Source: Bacteroidetes bacterium B1(2017)
GTDB taxonomy: Bacteria > Bacteroidota > Bacteroidia > UKL13-3
NCBI GenBank assembly: GCA_002256395.1
Contig: NKJG01000003.1
Span: 1-64,000 of the forward strand
DNA length: 64,000 bases
Reading direction: 5' to 3'
Part shown: piece by piece, positions 60,242 through 61,108 of the stretch
Numbering within the stretch: position 1 is the stretch's first letter
Layout: the number at the start of each line of letters is the position of its first letter
Translations under genes and position numbers: made by a program
Notes under the pieces: generated by a model
Told to the model about the DNA's origin: nothing
Databases searched by the model: none
What the model saw: only the letters and a program-made list of their open reading frames with translations

Positions 60242-60313
<72 letters not shown>

Positions 60314-60318
60314 CTAAT

Positions 60319-60343
60319 AAAAGCCCCTTCATGGGGCTTTTTC
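60319..60343 (+). terminator. Terminator after initiator tRNA
   Basis: AAAAGCCCC-TTCAT-GGGGCTTTT, immediately downstream of the tRNA. An identical copy lies at 60700-60724. Confidence 0.88.
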
Positions 60344-60356
60344 ATTTATACCCTAA

Positions 60357-60614
60357 ATGGAAAAGTATTATACCTATGTTTTGTATTCCAAAACACATGA
60401 GAAAATCTATATCGGTTACTCATCGGATATAGATTCAAGAATAAAATCACACAATGAACTTTCTAATAAGGGGTATACTTTTAAATTTAGACCTTGGGAA
60501 TTAATTCATTTAGAAGAATTTTCAACTAAAGCAGATGCAATGAAAAGAGAGAAGCAATTAAAATCAGCAAATGGACGAATGTTTATTTGGGACATGATTT
60601 CGAAATTAAAGTAA
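60357..60614 (+). CDS. Single-domain GIY-YIG nuclease, copy 1
   Basis: This 85-residue protein is a bare GIY-YIG domain of the YhbQ/UPF0213 type. It has YTYVLYS (5-11, the GIY strand), IYIGYSS (17-23, the YIG strand), the active-site Arg in SRIKSHN, and a helix with Glu in LEEFSTKADAMKREKQLK. All expected catalytic positions look intact. Single-domain members are common in Bacteroidota; their biological role is unknown, and structure-specific nuclease activity is assumed. It lies in a 381-bp unit between the initiator tRNA and a tRNA remnant. Confidence 0.92.
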   Translation: MEKYYTYVLYSKTHEKIYIGYSSDIDSRIKSHNELSNKGYTFKFRPWELIHLEEFSTKADAMKREKQLKSANGRMFIWDMISKLK

Positions 60615-60695
60615 GCAGTGTTAGCTCATTGGGCTCATATCCGCTAGCCAGCGGACGTAGGTTCATCCCGATAGCTATCGGGATGCCTCTGCAAC
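60615..60695 (+). pseudogene. Degenerate tRNA-fMet copy 1
   Basis: Eighty-one bases resemble the initiator tRNA from the D-arm to the 3' end: GCAGTGTTAGCTCATTGGGC, then CGTAGGTTC, and the final CTGCAAC. The 5' acceptor strand is absent. Two stretches are replaced: the anticodon/variable region by TCCGCT-AGCC-AGCGGA (60640-60655), and the T-loop region by the 20-bp palindrome at 60665-60684. It cannot fold as a tRNA. Confidence 0.8.
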
Positions 60696-60699
60696 TAAT

Positions 60700-60724
60700 A
60701 AAAGCCCCTTCATGGGGCTTTTTC
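60700..60724 (+). terminator. Terminator copy 2, upstream of second GIY-YIG gene
   Basis: Identical to the terminator at 60319-60343, shifted by the 381-bp repeat period. Confidence 0.88.
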
Positions 60725-60737
60725 ATTTATACCCTAA

Positions 60738-60995
60738 ATGGAAAAGTATTATACCTATGTTTTGTATTCCAAAACACATGACAAAATCTATATCGGTTAC
60801 TCATCGGATATAGATTCAAGAATAAAATCACACAATGAACTTTCTAATAAGGGTTATACCTTTAAATTTAGACCTTGGGAATTAATTCATCTAGAAGAAT
60901 ATACAACTAAAGCTGATGCCATGAAAAGAGAGAAGCAATTAAAATCAGCAAATGGACGAATGTTTATTTGGGACATGATTTCGAAATTAAAGTAA
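60738..60995 (+). CDS. Single-domain GIY-YIG nuclease, copy 2
   Basis: This 85-residue near-identical duplicate of the gene at 60357 has only three amino-acid changes (Glu14 to Asp, and Phe-Ser to Tyr-Thr in LEEYTTKAD). All GIY-YIG motifs are retained. The remaining base differences are largely silent, which suggests both copies have stayed under protein-level selection since the duplication, or that conversion keeps them alike. Confidence 0.92.
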   Translation: MEKYYTYVLYSKTHDKIYIGYSSDIDSRIKSHNELSNKGYTFKFRPWELIHLEEYTTKADAMKREKQLKSANGRMFIWDMISKLK

Positions 60996-61076
60996 GCAGA
61001 GGTAGTTCGTTGGGCTCCTATCCGCTAGCCAGCGGACGTAGGTTCGTCCCGATAGCTATCGGGATGCCTCCGCAAC
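60996..61076 (+). pseudogene. Degenerate tRNA-fMet copy 2
   Basis: Eighty-one bases aligned without gaps to remnant 1. They carry the same hairpin (61021-61036) and the palindrome TCCCGATAGCTATCGGGA (61047-61064). The anticodon-equivalent triplet is CCT rather than CAT. It ends CCGCAAC, closer to the true tRNA than remnant 1. Confidence 0.8.
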
Positions 61077-61082
61077 ATTAGG

Positions 61083-61108
61083 AAAATCCTGCTTCGGCGG
61101 GATTTTTT
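61083..61108. terminator. Terminator after the second tRNA remnant
   Basis: AAAATCCTGC-TTCG-GCGGGATTTT with a further T-run. It closes the tandem array and may also serve the minus-strand gene ending at 61168. Confidence 0.87.

Follow-up and report, generated by a model that had tools for sequence, protein, structure and literature searches.

The question raised by positions 60615-61076 of the window, i.e. the whole stretch of 64,000 nucleotides analysed here, is why two remnants of a tRNA-fMet gene carry the same two palindromic replacements. The initial annotation had described both remnants exactly, with either palindrome in its place. We consider the chances about even that the region belongs to an array of GIY-YIG cassettes, linked to a tRNA and repeated in tandem, in which the palindrome represents a nuclease-linked site.

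All features of the array are encoded on the plus strand. It lies behind an intact tRNA-fMet gene (60242-60314; ARAGORN, and Rfam RF00005 with 66.4 bits), which is the source gene of the pseudo-copies and which, read directly from the sequence, is of the initiator type (CAT anticodon, C1:A72 mismatch). The gene is followed by two tandem units of 381 bp (60315-60695 and 60696-61076), of which 366 positions are identical in the alignment. Unit 1 consists of a terminator-like hairpin 3' of the tRNA (AAAAGCCCCTTCATGGGGCTTTTT, 60319-60342), which according to repeat analysis and sequence recurs after the first pseudo-tRNA copy, a GIY-YIG nuclease ORF of 85 aa (60357-60614; Pfam PF01541, E=1.2e-20) and a pseudo-tRNA of 81 nt without the 5' acceptor strand (60615-60695). 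The corresponding nuclease ORF of unit 2, likewise of 85 aa, is located at 60738-60995 (PF01541, E=4.8e-20) and its 81-nt pseudo-tRNA at 60996-61076. Both copies were delimited by repeat comparison and sequence, and each follows an intact GIY-YIG ORF, with no base between the stop codon and the copy. A further terminator-like hairpin (AAATCCTGCTTCGGCGGGATTT, 61084-61105), seen by direct reading, stands at the end of the array. The initial annotation had covered both copies but missed the two ORFs, which make up most of each unit.

In both copies the anticodon-arm palindrome TCCGCT-AGCC-AGCGGA (TCCGCTAGCCAGCGGA; sequence matches at 60640-60655 and 61021-61036) is found in place of ACCCAAAGGT directly 3' of CATA, and the T-arm palindrome TCCCGATAGCTATCGGGA (sequence matches at 60666-60683 and 61047-61064) in place of GAGTCC 3' of GGTTC, which corrects the earlier account in detail. 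Allowing up to 3 mismatches, 0.01 matches to the 18-mer were expected in the window and 2 were found, and for the 16-mer 0.15 were expected, the 4 matches representing 2 sites on both strands. Neither 81-nt copy was called a tRNA by ARAGORN or Rfam, which recognised the intact gene at 60242-60314 alone. Of the 81 positions, 7 differ between the two copies, and all 7 lie outside the 34 bases of the palindromes (P = 0.018, a modest hint of slower change there). From this we conclude, as had been proposed before, that the palindromes are older than the tandem duplication. Moreover, an identical anticodon palindrome is located at the same place in a genome of the same genus (G005, L216), and the T-arm palindrome recurs in the corresponding position in G010 and G012 (L210, L211), so that both palindromes also predate those species splits.

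The two window ORFs score 74.0 and 72.1 bits against PF01541, whose curated cut-off is 22.6, and therefore belong to the GIY-YIG superfamily. Across 20 aligned proteins of the family, Y7, Y18, G20, R28, H32 and E65 are invariant, which we take to be the residues of the GIY-YIG catalytic motif. A search of NCBIfam returned no family for the window nuclease; the closest solved structures by sequence profile are those of UPF0213 proteins (1ywl, 1zg2) and SLX1, two families that to our knowledge are not defined by a linkage to tRNA genes or palindromes. The nuclease ORF is under purifying selection and selectively maintained, with a dN of 0.015 and a dS of 0.117 between ORF 1 and ORF 2 of the window and a median dN/dS of 0.15 between nuclease copies within arrays.

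The same arrangement recurs in the window's own genome, where a second, independent array is located beside an intact tRNA-Val(tac) (G000:C9:489.2-490.1 kb, L017). It consists of two 358-bp units, each with a GIY-YIG ORF and a pseudo-tRNA-Val, in which the entire anticodon arm is swapped for TCCCGACTTAAGTCGGGA and the T arm harbors another hairpin; these palindromes are unlike those of the window, and its nucleases are distantly related to the window nucleases. In this array the stop codon of the nuclease ORF (TAA) falls within TCCCGACTTAAGTCGGGA.

Using a profile built from 20 such nucleases (threshold E <= 1e-12), matches were obtained in 216 of 395 sampled Bacteroidota genomes, representing 117 of 171 genera. 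The matches are often arranged in tandem with a spacing of about 315-400 bp, also in single-contig genomes, which is why we reject an assembly artefact as the source of the arrays. From loci read in many of the profile-positive genomes, 212 distinct nuclease copies were obtained, and 133 of these have a same-strand tRNA upstream within 3.5 kb; the linked types include fMet/Met, Asn, Cys, Ser, Asp, Val, Ala, Arg, Gly, Gln, Leu, Phe and Pro. A recognisable tRNA copy follows the nuclease in 103 cases, 89 of which contain a GC-rich palindrome (arms >= 6), compared to 19 of 103 control stretches of the same length ending in an intact tRNA. The remnants in the window are thus, other than the initial annotation implied, no local oddity but an example of a nuclease-plus-pseudo-tRNA cassette that recurs. 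A phage or plasmid origin of the cassette was considered and rejected, the best phage matches covering the tRNA only and plasmids yielding two weak matches.

The position of the palindrome is fixed for each tRNA type, i.e. after CATA in Met, at 50-58 in Asp and at 23-33 or 57-60 in Asn. Typically, ACCCAAAGGT is replaced by TCCGCC-n-GGCGGA in Met, CGAGTTCG by TCCCGA-n-TCGGGA in Asp, and the 10 nt 5' of the anticodon by TCCGTCAACCGACGGA in Asn and Val(gac). Pseudo-tRNA-Ser carries insertions within the anticodon, variable and T loops; at three of these loci (L152, L153, L171) long hairpins occupy all three loops at once, with tRNA stem sequence on either side.

The anticodon palindrome is conserved among Met-linked copies. 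Without any palindrome filter, 36 of 42 distinct copies contain the canonical TA-TCCGYY-n-RRCGGA; of the remaining six, two have TCCG in the T arm, two have TCCC, one deviates through one wobble change and the last resembles none of the others. In an alignment of 34 distinct sequences (A2), each of the 204 pair cells contains a standard pair and the loops comprise 2-4 free bases, whereby the invariance of the outer three pairs is partly built in, since TCC...GGA was required for selection. Compensatory double changes are present at pairs 5 and 6, together with two wobble states, and the covariation score was reached in 0 of 500 shuffles, so that the covariation proposed as a check on the window copies was indeed found. 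Slower change of the palindrome arms inside arrays was also considered and rejected: an alignment-based count showed no difference (17/200 in the arms, 105/1172 in the rest), and a pattern-based count (0/264 vs 117/858) is biased, half of the letters in the arms having been prescribed by the pattern itself. Of the 395 genomes, 15 show the fMet palindrome signature; 14 of these contain the nuclease at E <= 1e-12 (p = 0.002), and the fifteenth contains weaker nuclease relatives only, the best at 5e-11.

Palindrome and tRNA type were further compared with a tree of 120 nucleases, which is based on few alignment columns and contains many open forks. The tRNA type requires 26 changes on this tree, compared to a shuffled mean of 67, whereas the host family requires 50 on the same rows, and the main Met clade covers many host families; nuclease clades thus track tRNA identity better than host family. 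Grouping the 5'-most palindrome of each cassette as TCCG, CCC or other, the palindrome class requires 10 changes, which is matched by 1 of 500 shuffles within tRNA type (mean 14.3) and by 0 of 500 within host family (mean 20.8). The class also stays with the nuclease where the tRNA differs: two Val(gac) cassettes (L023, L029) and one Phe cassette (L091) are nested among the nucleases of the Met clade and have retained TCCG palindromes, which in both Val cases are flanked by Val tRNA sequence on either side, and the palindromes of two Met cassettes outside the main Met clade (L105, L111) are of the TCCC type, as are those of the nucleases next to them on the tree. An exception is L130, a Val(tac) cassette with TCCGATTTTTAATCGGA. 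Part of this coupling may be due to linked inheritance, which leaves unexplained that the palindrome class was kept with the nuclease while the surrounding tRNA changed. Architecture, recurrence, purifying selection on the nuclease, the tracking of tRNA type and the coupling of palindrome and nuclease are observed; architecture and coupling are well supported, the mechanism outlined below moderately to weakly.

The cassette unit comprises a free-standing GIY-YIG nuclease and a disabled copy of the neighbouring tRNA, with a palindrome replacing part of an arm. We propose that the nuclease would be dedicated to one type of tRNA gene, generating a DNA break in or close to this gene or its copy. 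Recombination via the flanking tRNA homology could then result in tandem amplification and in the seeding of other tRNA genes, in a SegB-like manner. The anticodon palindrome (TCCG class) would be functionally tied to the nuclease, either as a dyad that is bound or cut or as a cruciform resolved by the UPF0213/SLX1-like domain, and the T-arm palindrome would have been inserted later, from a dispersed REP-like family. Cleavage, mobility and the role of the palindrome are what we infer here; a cruciform or dyad substrate is plausible in view of the UPF0213/SLX1 fold family. That we are dealing with widespread chromosomal selfish cassettes, each directed at one tRNA type with a matched nuclease and cognate palindrome, and with ORF-less arrays as non-autonomous forms, is a more tentative extension, which we rate at somewhat less than even.

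The closest known parallel is SegB, a free-standing GIY-YIG homing endonuclease of T-even phages, whose activity amplifies the tRNA-segB segment in tandem via homologous recombination (PMC13096335). Both systems combine a small free-standing GIY-YIG nuclease near tRNA genes with a tandem segment of nuclease and tRNA (PMC13096335), but the Bacteroidota cassettes are chromosomal and their nuclease clades track tRNA type. Furthermore, SegB amplification results in full-length tRNA genes, whereas the Bacteroidota copies are disabled and palindrome-bearing, palindromes being unmentioned in the SegB study (PMC13096335). In the open-access literature, most subscription papers being outside the search, there was no description of a system of GIY-YIG nuclease, tRNA and palindrome in Bacteroidetes and nothing on the 16-mer CCCGATAGCTATCGGG or on UPF0213 linked to tRNA. 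That the layout recurs with many tRNA types, and that the kind of palindrome goes with the nuclease, suggests a tRNA-targeted mobile nuclease system. If the proposal holds, more than half of the sampled Bacteroidota genomes carry this nuclease family, in many cases in cassettes that shadow single tRNA genes, and each nuclease subfamily has its own short DNA dyad, which would provide natural enzyme-site pairs for the study of GIY-YIG specificity. It would likewise explain why Bacteroidota genomes contain a class of tRNA-like pseudogenes along with short palindromes, and would mean that nuclease-driven segmental amplification reaches beyond phages to bacterial chromosomes.

Several other explanations have to be weighed against a nuclease-linked site. 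The palindrome could confer self-immunity by destroying the nuclease target in the downstream tRNA copy and thereby sparing the cassette, for which a position fixed per tRNA type, as expected of a target site, would speak. Nothing, though, protects the intact upstream tRNA, whose sequence is the same, and point changes would protect equally well. As an intact tRNA has been kept next to the nuclease, a simple model of homing-site disruption fails and simple immunity is disfavoured; likewise, should the target be the tRNA gene itself, the protection of the carrier allele that characterises homing endonucleases would be absent, an intact tRNA-fMet being located directly upstream. We consider self-immunity quite improbable. 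Somewhat better, albeit still poor, are the prospects of a functional structured RNA, either as the 3' part of the nuclease mRNA or as a small tRNA-like RNA, in which the hairpins keep the fold and abolish tRNA function. The compensatory and wobble changes described above could indeed stem from an RNA hairpin, although they are also expected from a DNA dyad, and whole anticodon hairpins have been exchanged for hairpins in Val(tac), Gly, Gln and Ala. Compared to shuffled sequences, the two 81-nt copies fold more stably (z -3.1 and -2.7), a check that the initial annotation had suggested, but low folding energy is expected of any palindrome and the two folds differ in detail. An RNA function is further disfavoured by the 5' part of the tRNA copy, which ranges from near-complete to almost nothing depending on the genome, by a conservation of arm sequence that exceeds pairing alone, and by the different positions of the palindrome in different tRNA types. 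Ordinary dead tRNA duplicates with chance palindromes would agree with copies that are unrecognised as tRNAs, but recurrence in dozens of genomes and with about a dozen tRNA types makes this hardly credible, and it is contradicted by the excess of palindromes over intact tRNAs, by the link of palindrome class to nuclease clade and by the canonical form of most Met-linked copies.

The most serious competitor, which we nevertheless regard as unlikely for the pattern as a whole, is that REP-like palindromes, moved by Y1/RAYT or another enzyme, enter tolerant DNA, with tRNA remnants as tolerant hot spots rich in targets (TTC|GA) and the GIY-YIG gene as a passenger. For the T-arm palindrome, a later invasion by such a dispersed family is the simplest reading. 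Consistent with the suggestion that the palindromes might be found elsewhere, they are present at many other loci: TCCCGATAGCTATCGGGA itself occupies five sites in the window's genome, two of them in the array, and the wider class TCCCGA-n-TCGGGA occurs there in 11 copies vs 1 in the control, in 70 vs 0 in G190, in 111 vs 0 in G031 and in 1120 vs 42 across 54 nuclease-carrying genomes. On two contigs of the window's assembly (G000:C184 and C224; L015, L016) the same sequence surrounds a TCCCGATAGCTATCGGGA in opposite orientation, and since the assembly has an estimated contamination of 7%, these contigs may represent a repeat or another organism. Copy numbers of 50-111 are seen in some Bacteroidota, and in G190 the palindrome is located inside another repeat (CCCTGAGCGAAGTCGAAGGG / GGCTTCGACTACGCTCAG) with a few bases replaced (L239, L240, L245, L246). 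As in the tRNA copies, dispersed palindromes replace a few bases, and TTC, the T-loop context, precedes 6 of 40 compared to a background of 2.7%. Their abundance is higher in genomes with the nuclease (median 14 vs 3, p 1.6e-9), a comparison in which phylogeny, genome size and Y1 transposases act as confounders; it also tracks Y1, with the top counts where nuclease and Y1 are both present, and the nuclease-positive genomes G192 and G062, which are without any Y1 match, contain 1 and 2 copies only. Among Met cassettes, T-arm palindromes are sporadic, varied and lineage-specific.

Rickettsia palindromic elements, which are mentioned in PMC3733652, are small palindromes inserted in genes and intergenic DNA. 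They are longer than the window palindromes, often lie in frame inside ORFs, and are not known to come with a nuclease-tRNA cassette. The likeness to REP/RAYT systems (REPtrons) lies in the short dispersed palindromes (TCCCGA class) and their correlation with Y1 transposases; the differences are that the gene adjacent in the cassette encodes a GIY-YIG and not a Y1 (HUH) transposase and that cassette palindromes occupy fixed positions within tRNA copies. REP palindromes are classified by GTAG or CGTC tags at their foot (PMC3733652), which are absent from the palindromes of the window, as these start with TCC and end with GGA. Against an invasion of the anticodon arm, the TCCG class is near control level in most relatives and not clearly enriched in the genus (11 vs 6 in the window's genome), yet it is located at one site in nearly every Met copy. 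Moreover, palindrome class tracks nuclease clade within host family, and the window's genome holds two cassettes of different classes. The initial idea of small palindromes invading a tRNA copy thus fits the T-arm palindrome as a member of a dispersed family but is incomplete as an overall reading; the alternative of a nuclease recognition site, also raised there, comes near to what we propose the palindrome may be, and the initial interpretation as a whole is partly supported.

Palindromic pseudo-tRNAs that lack the ORF do exist, which indicates that the ORF is locally dispensable and means that invading palindromes still compete as an explanation of some of what is seen. The syntenic era-tRNA-fMet site within the genus contains no cassette in six genomes (L204, L206, L209, L213, L214, L215), a truncated ORF in two (L207, L208), a solo degenerate copy in one (L212) and ORF-less repeats of the T-arm palindrome in two (L210, L211). 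From these empty, truncated and solo states at one site we conclude that cassettes have been gained and lost. ORF-less palindromic copies at this site or upstream of it were found in two genomes (L205, L219), and others are located beside fMet (G073, G190, G387, G166, G069, G234), His (G418) and Gly (G419). Such loci, e.g. L274 (G073:C31), L278 (G190), L277 (G418, tRNA-His), L286 (G419) and L287/L288 (G002, G006), are in many cases tandem with units of 105-146 bp, and lie upstream of the intact tRNA in some cases and downstream in others. At L219 and L287 (G002:C245), the D arm and the anticodon arm of a pseudo-tRNA-fMet are both replaced by TCCGCT..AGCGGA, and this arrangement is repeated at the contig end.
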